The position numbers and the translations under genes are program-made. Below are positions 7,185 through 39,006 of a DNA stretch of 64,000 bases, piece by piece. Each line of letters opens with the position of its first letter. Within the stretch, counting starts at the first letter, position 1. Source of the DNA: Gammaproteobacteria bacterium. GTDB lineage: Bacteria > Pseudomonadota > Gammaproteobacteria > Pseudomonadales > Azotimanducaceae. The stretch is taken from NCBI GenBank assembly GCA_009840545.1, contig VXNM01000010.1, positions 62,001 to 126,000 of the forward strand. The letters are read 5' to 3'. The notes below the pieces were generated by a model. The model ran no database searches. It had not been told where the DNA came from and was given only the letters and a program-made list of their open reading frames with translations.

Positions 7185-7435
7185 GGGACTTTCGTCAATA
7201 GTGGAGGATGTCTACGCAAACTATACCATGTAGGGATTCGATACTTGACGACATCGCCTTCTTTCATGGAAGATTGAGCTTGTCTTGCAAATCGATTGGC
7301 CATCTTCCCTACACATAGGTGGAGTCAGTCTCATCCTCTAACTCTCGCCGTGGCCGAGACTGAAATGCTTGAATTGCCACGTCTTGCCGTTCAGACTGAT
7401 TGGTAAAATCGCAATTTACCCCGAGACAAGATCGA

Positions 7436-8407
7436 ATGAGCGTGATTTGGCTGTGGGTTGTCTTGCTCGTTGTGGGATTTGTCGTGCTCGTCGTCAGTGC
7501 ATCCTACTTCGTGGACGCAGCCAAGATCTCTGCACACTACCTCGGGGTCTCAGAGCTCATCATTGGGCTTACCGCCGTGTCTATCGGCACGTCCGCTCCT
7601 GAAATCCTAGTTGCCATAATGGACTCTTATACGGAGAGCCCGGATGTCGCCATTGGCAACGCCATTGGTTCAAACATCGCCAACATTGGCTTGGTACTTG
7701 GTCTCACAGCCATTGTCGTACCACTACCGTTCGAAGAACGAGTGTTGCGTAGCGAGCTTCCAATGCTTCTCGTGGCGACCTGCATCACGGCATTCTGCCT
7801 CGCCAATCTCCGTGTTGGACCCATCGATGGACTAATTTTGCTTTCGTTCCTGGGTTATATTCTCTTTCGACTTGTTAGAGATACTAGAACTACCGGGGAA
7901 CTGCCCGAGGAGATTGAAAGTGAAGTCGAAGACCTAGAGCGAATGTCGCCCCTTCGGTCTTGGATTCAGTTGGCGATCGGCTTGATCTTCTTGTTGATCG
8001 CTGCAAAGGTTATCGTATCTTCCGCCGAGCACATTGCACGCACCATCGGCGTGAGCGAGATGATTATTGGACTGACCGTGGTAGCTGCTGGTACAAGTCT
8101 CCCTGAGCTAGCCGCCACAATGGCGGCTGCTTTGCGGCGTAGTCCCGAGATTGCTATCGGAAACATCGTGGGATCCAACATCCTCAATATTCTTGCCGTT
8201 CTCTCAGTGCCCGCATTACTAAACCCAAGCAACATAACGCCTATTGACTTCTGGAGAGACTTTGGGGTTATGTTCATTTTGACCATGTTGTTAGCACTAT
8301 TCGCAAACGGAATAGGAGCTAAGAAAATCATTACAAGAAGTGAGGGTGTCATTTTCTTGGCATCTTATTGCTGCTACATCCTGTTGCTTTATTGGCAGGA
8401 TCTATGA
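7436..8407 (+). CDS. yrbG: Calcium/sodium antiporter family protein YrbG
   Basis: An inner membrane cation/Ca exchanger of the CaCA superfamily with about ten membrane segments. The two inverted alpha-repeats are plain: TAVSIGTSAPEI with GNAIGSNIANIG in the first half, and TVVAAGTSLPEL with GNIVGSNILNI in the second. Starting at ATG 7436 gives 323 residues, matching the usual length. The longer reading from a TTG at 7400 adds a charged tail and is less likely. It opens the kdsC-lptCAB-rpoN operon and its stop overlaps the kdsC start by 4 bp (ATGA). kdsD, which lies between the two genes in E. coli, is missing here. Confidence 0.92.
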   Translation: MSVIWLWVVLLVVGFVVLVVSASYFVDAAKISAHYLGVSELIIGLTAVSIGTSAPEILVAIMDSYTESPDVAIGNAIGSNIANIGLVLGLTAIVVPLPFEERVLRSELPMLLVATCITAFCLANLRVGPIDGLILLSFLGYILFRLVRDTRTTGELPEEIESEVEDLERMSPLRSWIQLAIGLIFLLIAAKVIVSSAEHIARTIGVSEMIIGLTVVAAGTSLPELAATMAAALRRSPEIAIGNIVGSNILNILAVLSVPALLNPSNITPIDFWRDFGVMFILTMLLALFANGIGAKKIITRSEGVIFLASYCCYILLLYWQDL

Positions 8408-28267: not shown

Positions 28268-29962
28268 TCAATCCGTTTCTTGTTGGATTACGACAAATTG
28301 ATTGGCTTCAAAGTCTCCTAAGGACTCAGACTGTCCGTCAGGCCAACGAACTTCCAAGTCTGTTATGGCTTCGTGATTACCAAGCCCAATGTGTACACGC
28401 GCATCGCTGGATGACATGAAACTCCCATCCCTAGAAACCATCTCGTAACGACTTTCGCCCGCGACACTGTACTTGAGGGTTGTGCCCAGCGCGGAACTGC
28501 CATTTCCATTTCTAAGGTCTAGTGACAGCCAATTTCCGCTGATTTTGATGTTGTTGAGCAACAGGTATGGCGGTGCATCTCGGTTCACAACAACCAGGTC
28601 CAGTCCACCATCGTTGTCTATGTCTCCCACAGCACAACCTCGACTTGTGTGGATTAGCTGACTCGCCCTCAAATTTCCCAGAGGTACTTCGACAAATGAA
28701 CCTTCTTCTTGCCCAGCAAAAAGCAGGTTTTGTTCAGCATAAATGTCTCCAGTACGCAAGTCGCTCGGGTAGACACCTCCATTGGCGACATAGAGGTCAG
28801 TCTTTCTGTCATTGTCAAAGTCTTCGAGAACAACACCCCAACGTGTATACCTGCTAGTTGCGGTGTTCAATCCAGTTTTGCTTGTGACGTCGGAAAAGTA
28901 GGTACCCTCATTTCGAAAGAAGGTGTCGGTTTCACCGACGAGATTCACAACAAGCAAGTCGAAGTCGCCGTCGTGGTCGTAATCTTTGGTTGCGACTCCC
29001 ATCCCTGCCTTGACCAGTCCATAACCATCCGCTGCTACGCCGTACGACTCTGCGGCATTTACGAACCTGAGATTTCCTCGGTTAATCCACAGTTCATTGG
29101 GAGTACGATCATTCGCCACGTAGAAGTCCATCAGCCCATCTGAGTTGAAGTCCGCACTGACCACACCAAAGCTGTGTCCAGATTCCTTGTTGATTCCGCT
29201 CTCTTCAGAGTAGTCGGTGAAGGTCCCATCACCGTTGTTTCGATAGAGACGATTGGTCGCAGGTGACGCGTAACGTTCTGGCGGACAGTAGGAACGAATG
29301 CCACCTTCGTAGCACTCAACTTCTGAGTTGATGTTCCAGTTCACGTAGTTGGCAACGAACAAGTCAAGATTTCCGTCTCGGTCGAAGTCTTGAAATGTTG
29401 CAGAGGAACTGAAAGACGGGTCATCAACGCCGGCCTCTACAGATACGTCCTCAAATGAACCCGTTCCATCGTTGGCCAGCAGCACATTTGGACCCACATT
29501 GGTGACATACAAATCAACGTCTCCATCATTGTCATAGTCTCCAGCCGCAATACCCATCCCATAGCCTGAATCTCCTGCACCGTTAGAACTCGATGCCTTC
29601 GCAAATCGACCGTTCTGCTGATTGAAGTAAAGTTCGTTTTGCCATTGGTCTGCTTCGTCTTCGTACAAGCTCCCACTTTGAACTAGGTAGATGTCGATCC
29701 ATCCGTCTCCGTTCAGATCAGCCAATGCAACACCGCTGCCATTGATCTCGGGAAGTAGTGGTACGGAGCGAAAACCGGAGCTATGCACAAAAGTTATTCC
29801 TCGATCGGTTGACTCTTCGCTAAACCAGGAACTCTCTTGTGGGTCTCGATCTATACGATCAGCTGAACATGCACCAAGTACCATCCCTATCCAAAGAACG
29901 ATAGTCGTTTTTCGTACAAATTGTTTGACCCTTAGAGATCCTAGTAGGGGAGTTTTCTCCAC
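28268..29962 (-). CDS. CRTAC1-type lipoprotein: seven-bladed FG-GAP propeller + ASPIC/UnbV domain (copy B)
   Basis: A 564-residue exported lipoprotein: signal peptide with lipobox LGAC (Cys32), then a calcium-type beta-propeller, then an ASPIC/UnbV domain (about 485-562). Seven DxDxDGxxD-like loops occur at 82-90, 142-150, 192-200, 271-279, 327-335, 381-389 and 447-455, one per expected blade; the sixth reads DFDNDRKTD and has lost its glycine. A conserved pair Cys217/Cys226 (ending CPP) probably makes a disulfide. Propellers of this kind bind ligands or partners through Ca-stabilised blades; the substrate is unknown. It is paralogous to the gene at 31525-33207 and lies 79 bp downstream of its TPR partner. 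Confidence 0.85.
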   Translation of the reverse strand: MEKTPLLGSLRVKQFVRKTTIVLWIGMVLGACSADRIDRDPQESSWFSEESTDRGITFVHSSGFRSVPLLPEINGSGVALADLNGDGWIDIYLVQSGSLYEDEADQWQNELYFNQQNGRFAKASSSNGAGDSGYGMGIAAGDYDNDGDVDLYVTNVGPNVLLANDGTGSFEDVSVEAGVDDPSFSSSATFQDFDRDGNLDLFVANYVNWNINSEVECYEGGIRSYCPPERYASPATNRLYRNNGDGTFTDYSEESGINKESGHSFGVVSADFNSDGLMDFYVANDRTPNELWINRGNLRFVNAAESYGVAADGYGLVKAGMGVATKDYDHDGDFDLLVVNLVGETDTFFRNEGTYFSDVTSKTGLNTATSRYTRWGVVLEDFDNDRKTDLYVANGGVYPSDLRTGDIYAEQNLLFAGQEEGSFVEVPLGNLRASQLIHTSRGCAVGDIDNDGGLDLVVVNRDAPPYLLLNNIKISGNWLSLDLRNGNGSSALGTTLKYSVAGESRYEMVSRDGSFMSSSDARVHIGLGNHEAITDLEVRWPDGQSESLGDFEANQFVVIQQETD

Positions 29963-30041
29963 CAGCTACAACCCTCCTTCAGGGGAAATACCGATGGAGA
30001 TGAGAAGCAGGCAGTGCTGCATTACGAGCTTGGAGTATCGG

Positions 30042-31553
30042 TTACTCCGAATTGGCAAGAACCTCGTCACGGTACTTGAGCACTTGAGCGAAGTTTTCTG
30101 GTGGAATCGCCAATTGTTGAGTCCAGAGCAACGCAGCGTCCAATTCGTCGAACTGACGGGCTTCGATATACACATAACACAGTCTCTCATGTGCAGCGAT
30201 GTGACGTGGATTGAGTTCTATCGTACGTTTCAGGTGTCTTGCAGCTTCATCCCATTGTTGTCGATAGCCTTCGATGGTTCCGAGATGCAGATGCGCCTCT
30301 GCAATTGCGCTCGACCCAATATCCAACACAGCGTTGAATGCAGAAATCGCTTCGTCAAAACGCTGTTGTTGCATTAAGACAATTCCTAGTCTCAAGTGTG
30401 CTTCTGAGTCAGATTCGTTAAGTTCGACACTCTTGCGTAACAACCCTTCAGCGGTGTCGAGGTTGCCTGTAAGGCTGACCAAGTCCCCCAATTGCGTGTA
30501 GTAAGGCTGATGCTCGGGACTAGATTCGATGCCTATTTGCAACGTCTCCATTGCCATCGTGGTTTCTCCTTGTGCCGAGTATGCCCATGCCAATGTACTG
30601 ACCAAGGAAGGTCGATCTCCGTATTGGGTACGCAAAGACAAGAGCTCCCGAAGGGACTCTTCGACTCTATTAGCCTGTAGCAGCCTTTGGGCTCGAGCCA
30701 ATCGTCCACCGAATCCGCGTATATGTTTCTCTCGACGAATGACAATTGGATCTGGCCAATTCAATGCGGCCTCTTGCTTGCTTAATGCTCTAGCGACATT
30801 GGCTTCATTGGAACGTCCTAAGTCGTTATATGCGGTTGCCAGCAGTCTAAAGATTTCAGGATGCAACGTCTTGACTCGAAGAGGTTCCAACAAGTCGATG
30901 CTCTCCTGCGAGTTACCGCTCATTAACTTGACACGTGCCTTGCCCACAATGGAGTAGAAGCTCTGGTCAATGGAGTAAGCCCTTTCGAATGCCAATTCCG
31001 CGTCGTCAAATCTATCCAACCTCAGCAGCCATGTGCCTAACCACAGCCACGCCGCAGAATAGTCCGGATCGATAGTCAATGCGACTTCGATCATTCCGAC
31101 AGCCTCTTCATATTCGCCTATCTTGGCATTCTGATGCGCAACAAAATACGGCCACATGAACTCATAGGGGTCCAGCAAGTGTGCCTGTTCATAAACGGGT
31201 ATTGATTGACGCGACCAGTTGTTCACGTCGTACGTCATGGCAAGCCGGCCACGTTCAGAACCCGAGGTTGGGTATTGGATTACTTGATTGTGTCGAACAG
31301 TTATGTAGTCGGCTAGACCTTCATCAATGTCCTTCAAGTCAGGAAGTACTGGTTCTTCTGCAACAGGAAACTCGACTAAGTCAGAATCTGGCTGCGTTGA
31401 GCACGAGGTAGAAGCAAGAGCCGCAAGGATCAACGCGATGATTACTCTCCCTACCTGTTTTTCCGCATGACTGCCGTGTGTACAGCCACCATTTACCGCC
31501 TTAGTCAAACCAATACGATCCAATTCATCTGGTCCATTTGGACGGGGACCCAT
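30042..31553 (-). CDS. Exported TPR protein (copy B)
   Basis: A 503-residue tetratricopeptide-repeat protein. After a long basic N-tail comes a hydrophobic export segment (VIIALILAALASTSC), so it is probably a lipoprotein, though the lipobox (STSC) is weak. Around ten TPR-like helix pairs follow. Between the repeat blocks lies an unusual non-TPR segment with WPDPI and IRGFGGRLARAQRLL, shared with the other TPR protein at 33204-34631. The ATG overlaps the end of the preceding CRTAC1-type gene by 29 bp. An internal TTG at 31508 is an alternative start. I expect it to act in the periplasm or at the outer membrane as a protein-interaction scaffold for its CRTAC1 neighbour. Confidence 0.8.
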   Translation of the reverse strand: MGPRPNGPDELDRIGLTKAVNGGCTHGSHAEKQVGRVIIALILAALASTSCSTQPDSDLVEFPVAEEPVLPDLKDIDEGLADYITVRHNQVIQYPTSGSERGRLAMTYDVNNWSRQSIPVYEQAHLLDPYEFMWPYFVAHQNAKIGEYEEAVGMIEVALTIDPDYSAAWLWLGTWLLRLDRFDDAELAFERAYSIDQSFYSIVGKARVKLMSGNSQESIDLLEPLRVKTLHPEIFRLLATAYNDLGRSNEANVARALSKQEAALNWPDPIVIRREKHIRGFGGRLARAQRLLQANRVEESLRELLSLRTQYGDRPSLVSTLAWAYSAQGETTMAMETLQIGIESSPEHQPYYTQLGDLVSLTGNLDTAEGLLRKSVELNESDSEAHLRLGIVLMQQQRFDEAISAFNAVLDIGSSAIAEAHLHLGTIEGYRQQWDEAARHLKRTIELNPRHIAAHERLCYVYIEARQFDELDAALLWTQQLAIPPENFAQVLKYRDEVLANSE

Positions 31554-33207
31554 CGCCCATTCTCAAGGTAACAAAACTCCCACTATTGAAATCTCCGAAC
31601 TCTTCGATTTCTCCCGTCGGCCACAACACTCTCACATCCTCTACACTAGCAGCCGACCCGAGTCCGAAGTGCACCCGAGGGTCGTTGGACGACAGATAGC
31701 TACCTTCCGGCTGAACTGATCCGTAAACACGATGACCATCACGAATAAGGGTAATAACGGCTCCAATTGCATCGCTTCCATGTTGGTTCAACAGCGAGAA
31801 TGCAATCCAATTGCCGCGATTGGCAAATCGATTCATCAGAACGTAAGCCCTCGCGTCTCGATTTACAACCACGAGGTCCAAGCCTCCATCGTTGTCCAAG
31901 TCTCCAATTCCCACACCCCTGCTTGTGTGAACAAGCGACTCCAAAGTGCCACCCTGTGGCTCTACCTCTTCGAATCGTCCATCAGGTAATCCCCGGAACA
32001 AAGTGTTTGGTTCGGCGTAAATGTCTTCGGCACCTAGATCTACTGGACTCACTCCTCCGTTCGCTTCATAAAGATCCAACTGTCCATCGTTATCGAAATC
32101 AGCCATTACAACTCCAAATCTCGTATATCTGCGACTTGGAGCACTCAGTCCAATCTCACTAGTGGAGTCGGTGAAGTGAGTCCCCTCATTGCGAAAAAAT
32201 GAATCCGACTCTCCCGTTAGATTCACGACCAAAATGTCGAAGTCTCCGTCTTGATCAGGGTCGGACGACACGACGCCCATTCCTGCCTTCGCGGTTCCAA
32301 ATCCATCAACTCCAGAACCACGAGTCATCGATTCGTCCACGAACCGCAAGTCTCCGCGATTCATCCATAGCTGATTGACTGTGAGGTCGTTGGCAACAAA
32401 AACGTCGATATAGCCGTTGTGATCGAAATCAGCACCGACTACGCCGAAACCATTTCCGAACGACGCATTGATGCCGGCTTGACGCGTTATATCCGTAAAG
32501 CTTCCGCCCCCATCGTTCCGATACATGCGATCTATCGCTGGAGCTTGATAGTTAATCGGTGGACAATATGTCAATACTCCGCTTCCAAAGCAATCCAGTT
32601 CGATCTCCAATTTCCAGTGCAAGTAATTTGCGTGATAGAGATCGAGGTCACCGTCACGATCCAGGTCGAGAAATGCAGCGGAAGTTCCCCATTGAGTGTC
32701 GCCTAGACCTGACTCGTTCGTCACATCTGCGAACAGACCCGCTCCGTTGTTTCTGAACATCTTGTTCTCACCAACGTTCGTCACAAATATGTCGTTGTCT
32801 CCGTCGTTGTCATAGTCCCCCGCGGCTACACCCATCCCGTATCCGCGGTCAGCCAATCCGTTCGCATTCCCGCGCATTTCGAATTGCCCTTCTCCCAAGT
32901 TCAGAAATAGCTGATTAGGCTGAGCATCTTCCTCAAGAAGAGAACCACTTTGAACGAAGTAAATATCCAACCATCCGTCTCCATTGACATCTGTCAACGC
33001 CACTCCACTGCCTGTGATTTCGGGCAGTAGGTGCTTTTCGCGGTGTCCGGATTGGTGAATGAAGTCGACCCCTCTACGCTTGGATTCCTCCACAAACCAG
33101 AATTCCTGCATTGGTTCGTTTCCAGATCGATCCACAGGAGCTTCGCAGCCTGCAAATAACGTACAGACGCATACCAACGAGATGAAGACTGTGTCAGTAC
33201 TTTTCAT
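31525..33207 (-). CDS. CRTAC1-type lipoprotein: seven-bladed FG-GAP propeller + ASPIC/UnbV domain (copy A)
   Basis: A 560-residue paralogue of the protein at 28268-29962. The lipobox is FAGC with Cys21. Calcium-type loops occur at 73-81, 131-139, 181-189, 260-268, 316-324, 370-378 and 436-444, giving seven blades. The Cys206/Cys215 pair ending CPP is retained. The C-terminal ASPIC/UnbV domain (about 475-550) has DPRVHFGLG and VRVLWPTGE. It starts at an ATG that overlaps the TPR stop by 4 bp, so the TPR and propeller proteins are made in step. Function is unknown; the family is common in marine and soil bacteria and is usually annotated only by domain. Confidence 0.85.
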   Translation of the reverse strand: MKSTDTVFISLVCVCTLFAGCEAPVDRSGNEPMQEFWFVEESKRRGVDFIHQSGHREKHLLPEITGSGVALTDVNGDGWLDIYFVQSGSLLEEDAQPNQLFLNLGEGQFEMRGNANGLADRGYGMGVAAGDYDNDGDNDIFVTNVGENKMFRNNGAGLFADVTNESGLGDTQWGTSAAFLDLDRDGDLDLYHANYLHWKLEIELDCFGSGVLTYCPPINYQAPAIDRMYRNDGGGSFTDITRQAGINASFGNGFGVVGADFDHNGYIDVFVANDLTVNQLWMNRGDLRFVDESMTRGSGVDGFGTAKAGMGVVSSDPDQDGDFDILVVNLTGESDSFFRNEGTHFTDSTSEIGLSAPSRRYTRFGVVMADFDNDGQLDLYEANGGVSPVDLGAEDIYAEPNTLFRGLPDGRFEEVEPQGGTLESLVHTSRGVGIGDLDNDGGLDLVVVNRDARAYVLMNRFANRGNWIAFSLLNQHGSDAIGAVITLIRDGHRVYGSVQPEGSYLSSNDPRVHFGLGSAASVEDVRVLWPTGEIEEFGDFNSGSFVTLRMGDGSPSKWTR

Positions 33208-34631
33208 GGCACGTCAGAATCTACTTGGTTTCTGTTTTGTTCGATTAGCTCGTCGGCTTGTTGTAGCAATTCAGGGTCTACACCAAGTCTGCGAGCCCAG
33301 TTTAGAGTAGCTTCCGCTCGGTCGATCTCACCTTTTTCTATTAGTGCATGTGCGAGGTAAAGGTGTCCATTCTCGTTTCCCGGGTCGAGTTCCACTACCT
33401 GTGAAAACTCATCGATGGCTTCAGCCCATTGCTTCCGGAAACCATAAATTGTGCCAATGCGCAATCGAATCACCGCTACATCGCTGAAACCGAAGTCTAT
33501 CGCTTTCTCAAATGCAGCGATTGCTTCGTCAAATCGTTCCATACGCATCAACACGGACCCTAGTCGTTCGTAAGCCTCAGGATTGTGCTCGTTGATTTCA
33601 GTGCTGCGAGTAAGGAGCATGAAAGCATCCTCGTTCTGTCCTCCTCTATACATCAAATCCCCTAGTTGCACATAGAACCTAAATTGATTGGGCATCATTT
33701 CAATGCCCCGCTGGAGAATGTCTTTTGCCTTTTCGGGTTGTTGAGTCTTTTCGTAGGCGACAGCAAAACTGCTTATCAGAGCTTCGTCATTTGGTCTTAT
33801 CTCCTCCAGTCGCTCCAGTTCCCGTAGTGCATCTTCATAGCGTTCAGCCTTTAGAAGACTCTGCGCATAGACCATACGACGTCCGAACCCCCGTACATAC
33901 TTGTTGGGTCTCTGTCTGATCGGGTCCAACCAGAGCATTGGGAATACTTTCTTGCTCAAAGCTCGAGCAACCTCGGCTTCCTCGTTCATATCTAGTCTGG
34001 CGTAGGCTGTGGAGAGCAACCTCCAGATCTGTGGGTGCGGAAGAGTTTCCGCATAGGGAACCAAGATGGCTACGGCTTCCTCGAACTCCTCCCTGCGCAA
34101 ATGTACTTGTGCTATGCCTTCGGCGGAGGGAGATCCCGCACCGAGTGCAGCAGCGTCTTCGAAGGCATCCATCGCTTCATCAAGAAGGTCTTGATGAAGC
34201 GACCAATTTCCTCGATGCAAATGTGCTGGAACATACTCAGAATCAATTTCGATTGCATGTGCTATTTTCTCGAGGGCTCGGTCTATGTCCCCTTTTTGTT
34301 GGTCAATGAGTGCACCGAAGTACCACCATGCAAATTCACGAGTGTCAAGAGTCGATGCTTGTTCGTACATGACCCTCGCTGCATCAGGAAAGTGATTCAC
34401 ATCGTAGATCATGCCCAGCCTACCTCGTAGCGATGACGAGTGGGGAGCAGCGGCTATGAGTTCAAGAGTTTCGGATATGGTTTCAGCTAATTCTGTGTCA
34501 ATTTGGGATGTGTCGATGGCATAAGCCTGTTCCACGATTTCCGAATTCTGAATCTGATTGCTACACGAAGAGATTTGGAAAAGGGCGGTCAGCCACAAAC
34601 AAAGCAAAGAAGATGAACCCAGTCTATTCAA
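33204..34631 (-). CDS. TPR lipoprotein (copy A)
   Basis: First gene of the duplicated module, about 475 residues. I chose the TTG at 34631 because GAAGG lies 5 nt before it, giving MNRLGSSSLL and a compact signal peptide ending ISSC, a lipobox. An in-frame TTG at 34646 is the longer alternative. Many TPR units follow (for example AHLHRGNWSLHQDLLDEAMD, AYERLGSVLMRMERFDEAI). The mid-protein non-TPR segment has WLDPI and YVRGFGRRMVYAQSLL, matching copy B. It ends with a 4-bp overlap onto the CRTAC1 gene. Its upstream side is a strong terminator for the receptor gene, so its promoter must lie in the roughly 50 bp between, or it depends on readthrough. Confidence 0.82.
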   Translation of the reverse strand: MNRLGSSSLLCLWLTALFQISSCSNQIQNSEIVEQAYAIDTSQIDTELAETISETLELIAAAPHSSSLRGRLGMIYDVNHFPDAARVMYEQASTLDTREFAWWYFGALIDQQKGDIDRALEKIAHAIEIDSEYVPAHLHRGNWSLHQDLLDEAMDAFEDAAALGAGSPSAEGIAQVHLRREEFEEAVAILVPYAETLPHPQIWRLLSTAYARLDMNEEAEVARALSKKVFPMLWLDPIRQRPNKYVRGFGRRMVYAQSLLKAERYEDALRELERLEEIRPNDEALISSFAVAYEKTQQPEKAKDILQRGIEMMPNQFRFYVQLGDLMYRGGQNEDAFMLLTRSTEINEHNPEAYERLGSVLMRMERFDEAIAAFEKAIDFGFSDVAVIRLRIGTIYGFRKQWAEAIDEFSQVVELDPGNENGHLYLAHALIEKGEIDRAEATLNWARRLGVDPELLQQADELIEQNRNQVDSDVP

Positions 34632-34688
34632 AACAGCCTTCGCCAAAACGGTTAAGGTGACCCATGGTTATTTCCATCTACACAGAAT

Positions 34689-34722
34689 AAAAAAATCCGG
34701 CACCGAAAGTTTCGGTGCCGGA
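34689..34722 (-). terminator. Rho-independent terminator of the TonB receptor gene
   Basis: On the minus strand a 13-bp inverted repeat (arms 34722-34710 and 34708-34696, core CCGGCACCGAAA) is followed directly by a run of seven T. It begins 40 nt past the receptor stop codon. This is the clearest intrinsic terminator in the window. It separates the receptor from the TPR/CRTAC1 genes, or lowers their readthrough. Confidence 0.9.
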
Positions 34723-34761
34723 CTTTTAAGTTGTCAGTCTAGTGACTGAACTGATCTAACG

Positions 34762-37700
34762 TTACATGCTCATAGAGATTCGTGCGAATCCCAACCGACC
34801 CATGCCGTTGTCCACATATGCTTCAAAACCAACCCCTGAAGGAATTGGTGTTGGGTAGTGGTCAAGAAGGTTTCGGATCGAAACATTGACGGAGAACGAA
34901 GACATTCCCAGGAAACCGGTACGGCTGTACGTATAGCTAAAGTCCCAATACGCCCCCGAAGGAATTTTGCAGTAGGGGTTTCTATCCTGATCTATGCAGG
35001 CTTGAGATTCGTCCCATACGAAATTTGGAATCTCGTCGGTATCGTCAACATTGAACACAGGCATTCCGTTAAATTCGTTGTTGTTCCAACCATTAGGATC
35101 CGTCAGGTATTCGGTCTCGGAGCACAAGTCTCCATTGTTACGGGTGTAAGTTCCGTCAGGTCGCGAGCGGCACTTGGTCCACTCCATAATCTCATCATAG
35201 GCCGCACTGACATCTGTCAGCGAGTCGTGCCAACGGACACTCAGTTGAGCAGTATGCGGTCCTGAGAACCAACGCAATCCGAGATTGACTCGATACTCCG
35301 GTGTTGGAGGCAGCGGAGTTGCAAGATCGGACCCAGCCCAGAACGCGACTGCATTCCTGTTACCAACACCGTCGACATTGAGACCCGCATATCCGTGACC
35401 GGAACCGGCCCCGAATCTGGTCAAGCTAAGTTCAAGCATTCGTGTAACCGAGAACGAAGCATTGAAATTCCCGTAGTTTCCGCCGATGAAGGGAATCGCT
35501 TCGCTATCAAAGCTATACCCACCTTGAGCTATGAGCGTCCTAGTTCGATATTCACCTTGATTGATCCAAGCATTCGAAGCCTGTACAAGCCGTCCGTTTT
35601 CACGAACGATCACCCCACCTGAAAGGGCAGTCTCTTGTCCAAGCCATTCCTCAACAGCTGCAAGACGACATTGCTGTTCGGATAACGGCGTTTGCGCAAC
35701 GTAGTCTAGCGGTGTACGAGGAATATTCGGATACTGGTCGATCGGATACTTGTTTTGATTGTCGTAGTCAATCAACGTATCAATGCCACATCGATCCTTG
35801 ATGAATTGCTCGAATCCGGCTTCGTTTTGATTAACGACGGCTGTCGCACTGATTCGTTCCGCACGTCCGTTAAACGCTACGTCTGTGTAGTCGATATCCA
35901 TTCTGAAGTCGTCGTCAAACATACGGAATGTAAAACCGGTATTCCATAGTTCGGAAACCTCAGCAGAAAGGTTTCTATTTGCAGAATTCGGTATCACCAA
36001 CACATTGGGAACACCACCACCAGGTCCAACTCCTGAGCATTGCGGCAACTCCGGAAGTCCATCGCATACATAGTCACGAATTGTTTCCTCCGATGAGTTT
36101 TCGCCGTCCGTCACGTTAAACAGCTGGAACATTCCAGGAAGCACAAAACCCTCTGTTCGACTAAAACGCATGGACAGGTTGCTGTTTGGCGTATAGCTCA
36201 TAGCGAACTTAGGAATCGTGACATCAAAGTTTGCCACTTCACCCGTAGCCGACAGAGAACCTCTTCCCGTGAATTCCGCGTAACGGATGGCAGTCTGAAC
36301 TTCCATCTCGCCCCAACGTGGGCTCGAAATCAGCGGCCAACGAAACTCGGTAAATACAGCATCAGTTTGCTCTTCCGTGTATTGGAAACTCACAATCGAG
36401 GAGCCCAATGACGCGGCACCAACTTGATTGGGTCGATATTCCTCTGACTCAATTCGGTGGTGCATACCAATTGCAAACCCTACGGGCGCATTGTTGTACG
36501 GAAGATTGAACAAGTTTGAGTTTGATGCAATCAAGTCAATTAGCACAAATCCAACAAGTCGCTGATCGGCACGTGGAATAATGCCGGCGTTTCGGGTTTC
36601 TAGCGTCGTATTCCAAGCCGGATCATCCTTATCCCGCCACTGTGGCAACAATTCCCCTGTTTCGGGATCCGAGTCCAACCAGCTTGTACTGAATGGATTG
36701 AAACATTGTTGACCGTCTCGACCCCCAGAACATCTGAACGAATTGACCGCCCAGTGCCAAATCGGCTCAAGCCAGTCGTTTTCGCGCTTGTTGAGTGCCC
36801 AAACCCAGTCGGCATTGATGTACCACTCGGTATCCGGAATCTCAATCGTCGTCCCGAGGCGCAGACGCATGTCATTCAATTGTGCTCGATGATCGAAGCT
36901 CATATCGCCATTCAGCCATGGATAGCTCTCATGCACGTATGGCTGTTTCGGATGCGCCGCCAACTGAGAGAGTCTTGCGTCCTCAAACAAGCGCACACCT
37001 ATGGTTCCATGCGAATCTGGGTCGAATCTGTCAGGAATTCCATCACCGTCCACATCGCTGTTCAGCGGTAGCAGAATTACTCGATTTTGCGCACTATGCT
37101 GTGCCGTTCGGTCGTTGAGTTCCCAATCTTCTGCGACACCGTCGCCGTCAACGTCACGATCGGGTAATCCGTCGCCATTTGAATCCTGAGCGTAGACGAG
37201 CCATTCACCCGCCTCTTGCAGATAGTCGTACTTTCCATTTCCGTTGGCATCGATATATGACAATTCTGTTTCGTCATGTATATCGATAGTTCTTTCCACA
37301 TCGTCAGACGTATCGTCTGGCGTTCCGTTATCGTCTATGTAAGTGAACCATCTGCCGTTAGTGAATTCGTCACATCCTGGCAAGTTAGGCAGCAGATCGC
37401 ACGTATTCGATCCATCTGCGAATGCCCGAAAGGGGTTCCCGGGATTGGATCCAATTGCAAATGGAATGAACGGACTAAGGTTGTCCTGACCAGCTGCTTG
37501 ACCCCATTCGTCGATTCCAAACCAGTCGTTTTGTCGCCCACGGCTCTCAAGCCGACTGATGGTGACCTCGCCGTGGAATGAAACGTAGTCGTTAAATCTG
37601 TGCTCAAAGAACGCCATGCCTTGCTCCCGATCTTGGGGAGTTTGCATGTCTTGAAAGTCTGTGGTAACACGACGACAGTCGTATTCCGATCCGTGGCTTC

Positions 37701-39006
37701 CTTGTTCGTCGCCGATTGTTCTGGTCTCGCGGCCCCAGACGTTTCCTGTTAGATATTCGTTCAGGAAGTTGCCCGGTTTGGTCGTATCGGTATAGCCGAG
37801 ACCTCCTGCCTCTGAGACCGACCCGGCTGCAAATCGCACTCCGTCAAGGCTGTTGTGGCCGGCACCAAAGTCATAGCCGCATCCAGGATCGACCTTGCGC
37901 AGCACCTTCAATCTGCCTTGTGTGTCCTGAATCGTTGTGCCAGCGTATCCAAACTCCTCAACGTCTGGAACTCCGTCGCCGTCGAAGTCGTCTACTTGCA
38001 AACGAATTGGTTCGCCCGCCGGATAGAGATACCAGGGATGCGAACTAGCAAGGAATCCAGGAGGAGGCGTACTGTTTGGAAACTGTGCCCATCCTGAAGG
38101 TGTCCAAGGGACAATTTCGCCACTCTCGTCGCGGAATGGAACTCGCCAATCACCCGGATTGCTTGATCCTGTCTCGCTCCAAGTTGGAAGAAGCTGACCC
38201 GTCCATCCGGCCGAAGAAATGATGAATTGAGGTCGTTCTGTAGCGGCCATTCGGTCTACGTCCCGAATTGCCATAGCAAAAATCGCACTAGATTTCTCGC
38301 TCTGTGCGCCCGCTAGCAATTCAAACGACTTGGACGGAGCACCGCCTTCGATTGCTTGTTGCGTCGAGTAATTGGCTCGGAACCCGTCAAAATTCTTTTG
38401 TGGAATTACGTTAACAACTCCAGATACGGCTTCAGATCCATAGATCGCTGACGCTCCGTCAAGTACGGTTTCAACCCGACCAATAGCAATTCCCGGGTAC
38501 AACGAATTTACATCGGAACCGGAACGACGTGTTCCAGGTCCATAGCCTTGAACGTTGGCGGGAACTCGGTGTGAATCCATCATCGTCATGGTGGCACGAG
38601 TGCCAAGCCCACGAATATTGGCCCAGACTTCAACGCCTCGTTGTACCGACTGGTCGTCTGCACGTCCAGTTGGGTGTTCAAACGGAGCGGCATTGGCGTT
38701 TACTCCTATCTGGTATGTCTGATCGAAGATGATGTCTCCCAAGTCAGGCGTACCAGCAAGTGAAATGTCCAGTTCGGTGATGATGTCCATTGGAGAAGGA
38801 GTATCGAAGTTGTCACGGCGAATCGCTGTTCCCGTTACGAGAAGATTCTCCATCGAGCCTTCGTCGTCTGCCTCAGCTTCTTCAGCTTCCGCAGCATCAA
38901 CATCCTCCTCTTCGTCGCTCTCCTCTTCCTGCGCCATAGCAGACGCCGTCCATAAAAGAGCGGCTGAAGCCAGAATCGCAGCCAGCGATCCTAATCGTAG
39001 TCGCAT
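34762..39006 (-). CDS. Giant TonB-dependent outer-membrane receptor with Ca-type loops
   Basis: A 1414-residue TonB-dependent receptor, much longer than the usual 700-1000, that should import an unknown substrate across the outer membrane. It has a signal peptide (likely cut after AMA, residue 25), a very acidic stretch (27-49), a TonB-box-like NLLVTGTAIRR (54-64) and a plug domain with IRGLGTRAT, RVETVLDGASAIYGSEAVSGVVNV. The barrel then carries large insertions. Five DxDGDG-like loops occur at 340-348, 586-594, 608-616, 618-625 and 651-659; they resemble thrombospondin-3/EF-hand calcium sites and are probably extracellular. The protein ends in ARISMSM; most barrels end in Phe or Trp. An AGGGGG ribosome site precedes the ATG. 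Confidence 0.93.
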   Translation of the reverse strand: MRLRLGSLAAILASAALLWTASAMAQEEESDEEEDVDAAEAEEAEADDEGSMENLLVTGTAIRRDNFDTPSPMDIITELDISLAGTPDLGDIIFDQTYQIGVNANAAPFEHPTGRADDQSVQRGVEVWANIRGLGTRATMTMMDSHRVPANVQGYGPGTRRSGSDVNSLYPGIAIGRVETVLDGASAIYGSEAVSGVVNVIPQKNFDGFRANYSTQQAIEGGAPSKSFELLAGAQSEKSSAIFAMAIRDVDRMAATERPQFIISSAGWTGQLLPTWSETGSSNPGDWRVPFRDESGEIVPWTPSGWAQFPNSTPPPGFLASSHPWYLYPAGEPIRLQVDDFDGDGVPDVEEFGYAGTTIQDTQGRLKVLRKVDPGCGYDFGAGHNSLDGVRFAAGSVSEAGGLGYTDTTKPGNFLNEYLTGNVWGRETRTIGDEQGSHGSEYDCRRVTTDFQDMQTPQDREQGMAFFEHRFNDYVSFHGEVTISRLESRGRQNDWFGIDEWGQAAGQDNLSPFIPFAIGSNPGNPFRAFADGSNTCDLLPNLPGCDEFTNGRWFTYIDDNGTPDDTSDDVERTIDIHDETELSYIDANGNGKYDYLQEAGEWLVYAQDSNGDGLPDRDVDGDGVAEDWELNDRTAQHSAQNRVILLPLNSDVDGDGIPDRFDPDSHGTIGVRLFEDARLSQLAAHPKQPYVHESYPWLNGDMSFDHRAQLNDMRLRLGTTIEIPDTEWYINADWVWALNKRENDWLEPIWHWAVNSFRCSGGRDGQQCFNPFSTSWLDSDPETGELLPQWRDKDDPAWNTTLETRNAGIIPRADQRLVGFVLIDLIASNSNLFNLPYNNAPVGFAIGMHHRIESEEYRPNQVGAASLGSSIVSFQYTEEQTDAVFTEFRWPLISSPRWGEMEVQTAIRYAEFTGRGSLSATGEVANFDVTIPKFAMSYTPNSNLSMRFSRTEGFVLPGMFQLFNVTDGENSSEETIRDYVCDGLPELPQCSGVGPGGGVPNVLVIPNSANRNLSAEVSELWNTGFTFRMFDDDFRMDIDYTDVAFNGRAERISATAVVNQNEAGFEQFIKDRCGIDTLIDYDNQNKYPIDQYPNIPRTPLDYVAQTPLSEQQCRLAAVEEWLGQETALSGGVIVRENGRLVQASNAWINQGEYRTRTLIAQGGYSFDSEAIPFIGGNYGNFNASFSVTRMLELSLTRFGAGSGHGYAGLNVDGVGNRNAVAFWAGSDLATPLPPTPEYRVNLGLRWFSGPHTAQLSVRWHDSLTDVSAAYDEIMEWTKCRSRPDGTYTRNNGDLCSETEYLTDPNGWNNNEFNGMPVFNVDDTDEIPNFVWDESQACIDQDRNPYCKIPSGAYWDFSYTYSRTGFLGMSSFSVNVSIRNLLDHYPTPIPSGVGFEAYVDNGMGRLGFARISMSM

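Follow-up and report, generated by a model that had tools for sequence, protein, structure and literature searches.

A giant TonB-dependent receptor and its duplicated TPR-CRTAC1 lipoprotein pair: a candidate lipoprotein-assisted importer in the Azotimanducaceae

Why should an unusually large TonB-dependent receptor (TBDR) be followed, on the same strand, by two copies of a gene pair that encodes a tetratricopeptide repeat (TPR) lipoprotein and a CRTAC1-family lipoprotein? The question is raised by five minus-strand open reading frames (ORFs) of a gammaproteobacterium of the Azotimanducaceae, which encode in order the TBDR, TPR1, CRTAC1-1, TPR2 and CRTAC1-2. They lie in a stretch of 64,000 nucleotides (contig VXNM01000010.1, positions 62,001 to 126,000), referred to here as the window. 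The ORF listing, the Pfam matches and a 17-pair hairpin agree with the initial annotation of this DNA, which had described a receptor, a terminator and TPR-CRTAC1-TPR-CRTAC1 on one strand. We put at roughly one half the probability that the five genes specify one outer-membrane unit, a lipoprotein-assisted TonB importer working like SusCD or BtuBG. This proposal starts from what can be observed, namely the conserved linkage, the pairing of TPR with CRTAC1, the folds, the lipobox cysteines and the age of the duplication, and would reach the mechanism by reasoned analogy.

Linkage of the receptor and the TPR-CRTAC1 pair

Loci were collected with an alignment of the receptor as query, because choosing them by CRTAC1 was to be avoided. 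At E≤1e-60 the receptor was found in 22 of 150 genomes of the host family, belonging to 6 of 37 genera, and at 1e-40 three of another 10 chosen genomes had it as well; among 299 genomes drawn from the phylum, the window's own was the sole match. We examined 29 giant-receptor loci, leaving out hits in G090, G160, G069:C72 and G092:C147. Every one of the 21 informative loci, that is, those with at least 4 kb of sequence downstream (19 genomes, four genera), has a CRTAC1 gene within 5 kb downstream of the receptor, and 20 of them have a TPR gene within the same distance. In L227 the TPR gene lies at a distance of 4.7 kb and is weakly matched, and L241 carries a TPR-CRTAC1 pair upstream of the receptor. 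Less than 4 kb follows the receptor in the other eight loci (L092, L216, L229, L232, L236, L239, L240 and L243). For L216 and L092 the sequence goes on in other pieces (L059, L089), which carry TPR and CRTAC1, while L232 shows a TPR gene, L239 a CRTAC1 gene, and the remaining four neither downstream.

Within three genomes (G000, which is the window's own, G113 and G074), a UnbV gene lies no more than 8 kb from 5 of 5 giant receptors but from just 4 of the 115 remaining Plug matches (Fisher p=6.6e-7); the window's genome alone has 28 Plug matches, and CRTAC1 stands near the giant receptor only. Across 18 genomes of the genus, a closely related TPR-CRTAC1 pair is present in 9 of 9 that have the receptor and in 1 of 9 that lack it; G001, G004 and G012 are less than 90% complete. 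We conclude that inside the host family the linkage of the receptor with the pair is specific and not a matter of chance, and that the tie of the pair to the giant receptor is restricted to this family. The initial annotation had proposed looking for co-localization in other genomes, and inside the family it is indeed conserved.

The identical order receptor-TPR-CRTAC1-TPR-CRTAC1 is seen in G003 and G014, both from the window's genus, and in all three genomes the cluster is also flanked by plain synteny. CRTAC1-1 is 78% and 69% identical to the first copies of G003 and G014, and CRTAC1-2 is 74% and 62% identical to the second copies, compared with 51% between the window's own two proteins; the TPR values are 72 and 58% for first copies, 72 and 55% for second copies, and 38% for TPR1 versus TPR2. 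In the CRTAC1 tree as in the TPR tree, first copies group apart from second copies, each set of three in a clade of its own (support 100 in each case), and the two clades are sisters, with support of 97 for CRTAC1 and 99 for TPR (SH-aLRT, a quick method). Position-matched orthologues in separate sister clades thus argue that a single duplication of the pair preceded the split of the three related species, each of which has kept both pairs. CRTAC1 has 43 sites, and TPR 44, that are fixed within each copy and differ from one copy to the other. These sites, and the age and separate conservation of the copies, fit the suggested divergence of the tandem copies but are no demonstration of two ligands.

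The pair itself is a cross-phylum unit, older and wider than its tie to the receptor. This emerged from a scan of named genomes, of which we analyzed the best 80 of 425 CRTAC1 relatives (41 of them acidobacterial and 19 planctomycetal, judging by title). In 53 of the 80 loci CRTAC1 has a TPR gene no more than three genes away, most often immediately before CRTAC1 (27 of 76) or immediately after it (21 of 70; 0 to 8 cases at other positions). Adjacent same-strand TPR and CRTAC1 genes overlap in 33 of 56 cases versus 74 of 267 background pairs, counts that use mechanically assigned ORF starts. Both regions are joined in a single protein in L154, L146 (here with a weak TPR hit), L198, L193, L184 and L214. 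The host genus and the neighborhoods of giant receptors also have a TPR/FG-GAP protein of some 1090 residues, confirmed with Pfam in L093 and L225 and with weak hits in L224, L233, L234 and L235. The two genes moreover diverge in step: over 40 modules from the host family their distance matrices correlate with r=0.92, versus maxima of 0.24 in 2000 free shuffles and of 0.81 in 5000 within-genome partner swaps (13 genomes having multiple modules). As linked genes share their history, this tells of faithful co-inheritance and not of contact. Adjacency, overlapping genes and fusions across phyla thus bear out the coupling of TPR with CRTAC1 first read from the window.

Receptors of other kinds also stand beside the pair; outside the host family this tie, here to the TBDRs of Acidobacteriota, is suggestive. 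With strict labels, both a TPR gene and a TBDR gene occur within three genes of CRTAC1 in 12 of the 80 loci, all with acidobacterial titles (the assignment of L187 was checked in the taxonomy), and a TBDR without TPR in 2. Oar-like PF25183 receptors stand next to the pair in acidobacterial loci (eight proteins scanned, seven from named loci), and conventional TBDRs adjoin it in L111 and L117, the latter on the opposite strand. Near genes show no clear enrichment in TBDRs over far genes, the shares being 17/381 versus 6/297 with strict labels (p=0.09) and 20/381 versus 6/297 with loose ones (p=0.04), in a test where genes of one locus are not independent and receptor profiles could miss TBDRs.

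The receptor and its lipoproteins

The receptor (34762 to 39006, minus strand, as are all parts of this locus) has 1414 residues and is 88-94% identical to its orthologues in G003 and G014. Its Plug domain (PF07715, residues 67-197, 38416 to 38808) scores 30 bits over a Pfam cut-off of 23.9; no Pfam model of a TonB-receptor barrel matched the protein at E 1e-3. Membership in the SusC/RagA group was rejected, the score being 17.8 bits for a TIGR04056 cut-off of 368.25. A long acidic N-terminal stretch precedes the plug, and residues 53-59 (38830 to 38850), inspected by eye, form what we take to be a TonB-box-like stretch. Six Dx[DN]x[DN]G motifs lie in a region of the receptor (residues 340-664, 37015 to 37989) that is conserved in the alignment of giant receptors. 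These carry 3-7 such motifs each in 25 distinct genes (27 rows, with two genes entered twice, as L220/L081 and L221/L049), versus 0-1 in 20 ordinary receptors, a comparison that leaves out L243, with six motifs, which was listed as the twenty-first ordinary receptor but is a truncated giant one. Motifs of this type bind calcium in propeller blades and in thrombospondin (PMC3123361), and those of the receptor and of the CRTAC1 proteins may well do the same.

CRTAC1-1 (31525 to 33207, 560 residues) and CRTAC1-2 (28268 to 29962, 564 residues), in which the Dx[DN]x[DN]G motif is present seven and six times, respectively, both match FG-GAP_3 and UnbV_ASPIC above the Pfam cut-offs, and the former also matches by sequence the solved CRTAC1 structure 9etn (E 5.8e-20). 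TPR1 (33204 to 34646, 480 residues from an uncertain TTG start) and TPR2 (30042 to 31553, at most 503 residues, its start likewise uncertain) match TPR families in Pfam. As to gene boundaries, the coordinates confirm the 4-bp overlap reported initially between the TPR1 stop and the CRTAC1-1 start (33204 to 33207). A second overlap, of 29 bp between CRTAC1-1 and TPR2, is uncertain: it assumes that TPR2 starts at the ATG at 31553, would be abolished by an in-frame TTG at 31508, and is absent from the orthologous locus L049, where 28 bp separate the equivalent genes. TPR2 and CRTAC1-2 are 79 bp apart.

TPR1 is modelled as a continuous TPR superhelix (pLDDT 90.9, pTM 0.81) whose best structural matches are OGT-type TPRs, with PilF and PilW among the shorter ones, and LbcA. 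These matches are shared with many unrelated TPR proteins; we claim for TPR1 a predicted repeat fold and nothing beyond it. A SusD assignment for the TPR lipoproteins was rejected: no SusD family appears among the 20 of 20 Pfam matches of TPR2 or the 25 shown of 26 for TPR1. There is likewise no SusD chain among the structural matches listed for TPR1, which leaves a SusD fold possible.

The position of these proteins in the cell can be approached through their lipid anchors. All 15 aligned CRTAC1 and all 14 aligned TPR sequences keep the lipobox cysteine; the signal peptides ahead of it were assessed by eye. Lipoproteins are sorted according to the residue that follows this cysteine, aspartate or another; in the window's proteins it is glutamate or serine, not aspartate, so that sorting to the outer membrane is likely. 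A search for the lipoprotein exporter Slam (PF04575) gave no match in 5 genomes, but none in 14 controls either.

An importer and its alternatives

In the importer we propose, the giant receptor would draw energy from TonB to take up a substrate, probably a large one. The CRTAC1 β-propeller would capture this substrate and might cap the barrel as BtuG caps BtuB, and the TPR superhelix could hold propeller, receptor or substrate together, in the way the TPR-based SusD works with SusC. The calcium-type loops of the receptor may form an extracellular docking platform, with the lipid-anchored partners presumably at the cell surface. Where the pair has been duplicated, in the window's lineage, one receptor would be served by two separately conserved pairs.

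It is by analogy with BtuB-BtuG and the SusCD utilisomes that we favor a lipoprotein-assisted TonB importer. In the vitamin B12 importers of Bacteroides, a seven-bladed β-propeller surface lipoprotein caps the TonB-dependent barrel (PMC10404256). The locus described here shares the pairing of a propeller lipoprotein with a TBDR, known in this case from the genes, and the likeness of BtuG to CRTAC1 is one of propeller shape. Differences lie in the receptor, which has PF00593 in BtuB and matched no barrel model here, and in the TPR partner, which the available part of that report does not mention. Levan and dextran utilisomes mount several lipoproteins on one SusCD barrel (PMC7618045), and the TBDRs of SusCD and RagAB have a TPR-containing lipoprotein lid (PMC11817032, PMC2954216, PMC7618045). 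In contrast to these systems, our proteins display no SusD match among the Pfam hits listed, the SusC model falls far under its cut-off, and no glycan enzymes recur across genera. The early comparison with SusD and SusC is thus apt as an analogy and fails as a statement of membership. The animal CRTAC1 (9etn) has the FG-GAP propeller and the C-terminal UnbV/ASPIC-type domain but is without TPR partner or receptor, and the lipid anchor is a trait of the bacterial proteins. A bacterial CRTAC1-family gene has also been described beside hydrazine-synthase-like genes in a conserved cluster, for which the available part of the report mentions no TonB receptor and no TPR partner (PMC12758564). Our search of the open-access literature found no paper on the receptor/TPR/CRTAC1 trio and no assigned function for bacterial CRTAC1-family proteins.

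It is tempting, if only tentatively, to go further and see here an importer class from outside Bacteroidota, in which lipoproteins of two kinds, the CRTAC1 propeller and the TPR superhelix, jointly serve a single giant calcium-loop receptor, and which was expanded in the window's lineage, through two diverged pairs, to a four-lipoprotein utilisome whose parts are unrelated to SusD; the pair would then be a widespread ligand-capture cassette put on different receptors. The bacterial CRTAC1 family is frequent, with at least 425 relatives in one scan of named genomes, and a fixed receptor partner together with a TPR partner turn this orphan family into a testable complex. If the importer is real, lipoprotein-assisted TonB transport would extend beyond the Bacteroidota systems compared here.

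Several findings weigh against an importer. No TBDR lies within three genes of CRTAC1 in 66 of the 80 distant loci (strict labels), so the basic role of the pair need not be uptake, and no hydrolase or transport gene recurs across genera beside giant receptors. The co-divergence of TPR and CRTAC1 would be expected from linkage alone, too. The model of a natural CRTAC1-TPR fusion, L154, shows a propeller and C-terminal beta domain (9etn, TMt 0.72) followed by a TPR arm, but because its pTM is 0.67, confidence is low in the linker and at about residues 592-657, and the orientation of the domains is not confident, we dropped it as evidence for a TPR-propeller interface and claim no docking from it. 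One genome, G004, retains TPR-CRTAC1 pairs without the giant receptor. Lastly, the terminator-like hairpin (34691 to 34727), a 17-pair stem followed by T's, separates the receptor from TPR1; the terminator call is made from stem length, since a full hairpin scan gave 9 terminator-like sites for a shuffle mean of 10.5, no excess. Such a hairpin may set the ratio of receptor to lipoproteins.

Could the pair instead be a general scaffold or assembly helper of the envelope, which helps to build or hold the giant receptor and captures no substrate? We think this unlikely. The pair is widespread and often lacks a nearby TBDR, and TPR1 finds among its structural matches PilF/PilW and LbcA, TPR lipoproteins of this helper kind; these are, however, matches at the level of a fold common to many unrelated TPR proteins. 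A general receptor helper would moreover be odd because, in the three genomes, 111 of the 115 other TBDRs stand more than 8 kb from any CRTAC1. Less probable again is that the pair has an envelope function of its own and shares with the receptor a lineage-specific, co-regulated neighborhood but no joint mechanism. The weak receptor link outside the family, the intervening hairpin and the receptor-less pairs of G004 all fit this view, which sits poorly with a CRTAC1 gene downstream of all informative receptors in four genera.

The calcium-type motifs of CRTAC1 and receptor would also suit a surface recognition or adhesion complex, cell-cell or matrix, that depends on calcium and uses the receptor as an anchor, and animal CRTAC1 is a protein of the extracellular-matrix type; yet the receptor retains a Plug and a TonB-box-like stretch, needless in an anchor, and we consider this reading quite improbable. 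As for a TonB-dependent surface-signalling receptor with the lipoproteins as ligand sensors, the long acidic stretch ahead of the plug is in its favor, but the receptor's Pfam hits include no signalling domain and no sigma/anti-sigma gene was seen by eye among the families recurring beside giant receptors, which were not scanned singly, making it very improbable indeed.

Recurring neighbors and other CRTAC1 genes

The genes that recur around giant receptors name no substrate for the proposed importer. In 10 loci, spread over two genera, receptor and TPR have between them a gene for a secreted protein of about 260 residues; this protein has invariant cysteines in an alignment of L224:7780-8559 with nine homologues, and the four members scanned match no Pfam family above cut-off. 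It is possibly a general companion of TBDRs. A relative in the window's own genome (G000:C5:616882-617655) is about 2 kb from another TBDR, whose Plug is at C5:614560. Sel1-like secreted proteins of about 250 residues accompany giant receptors in eight loci (among them L096:9222-11603, L235:3466-4254 and L243:6909-7682), the Sel1 hit in L235 being under the curated cut-off. Relatives of S9 peptidases occur in four loci within one genus (Pfam-checked in L224 and L235), a questin-oxidase-like protein, confirmed with Pfam in L097, in four loci from the genus of the window, and two more enzyme groups in three loci each, within a genus. Near one giant-receptor cluster (L097:12436-15546) we noticed genes that by eye resemble those of coenzyme F420 biosynthesis (CofC, CofD and CofE types), together with a putative F420-dependent NADP reductase.

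That CRTAC1 always comes with TPR and TBDR proved wrong as a general rule: three of the five other UnbV genes in the window's genome are in frames of about 1260 residues. These frames (L037, L038 and L039, and elsewhere L047 and L057) combine a CRTAC1 propeller with a vanadium-haloperoxidase-like C-terminal half; PF22778 is above cut-off in L057, the sole Pfam check of this domain, and tandem arrays are present in L047 and L056-L057. The same genome encodes a 1084-residue relative of the natural TPR/FG-GAP fusions (L040:8774-12028). The genus has, in addition, a second CRTAC1 cluster (L061, L066, L082, L087 and L093), composed of a TPR/FG-GAP protein, a TPR protein, CRTAC1, a protein of 914-922 residues, another CRTAC1 and a TBDR of 904-911 residues; the family of the 914-922-residue protein has hits to cytochrome c554 and TPR, as checked with Pfam in L079. 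In the window, the neighbors of the locus include YhdP, TldD/PmbA, MreC, RapZ and sigma-54 genes, which point to a gammaproteobacterial source, and elsewhere in it are genes for a PQQ-type alcohol dehydrogenase propeller protein (PF01011; 2115-4412) and a member of the sodium/calcium exchanger family (7400-8407).

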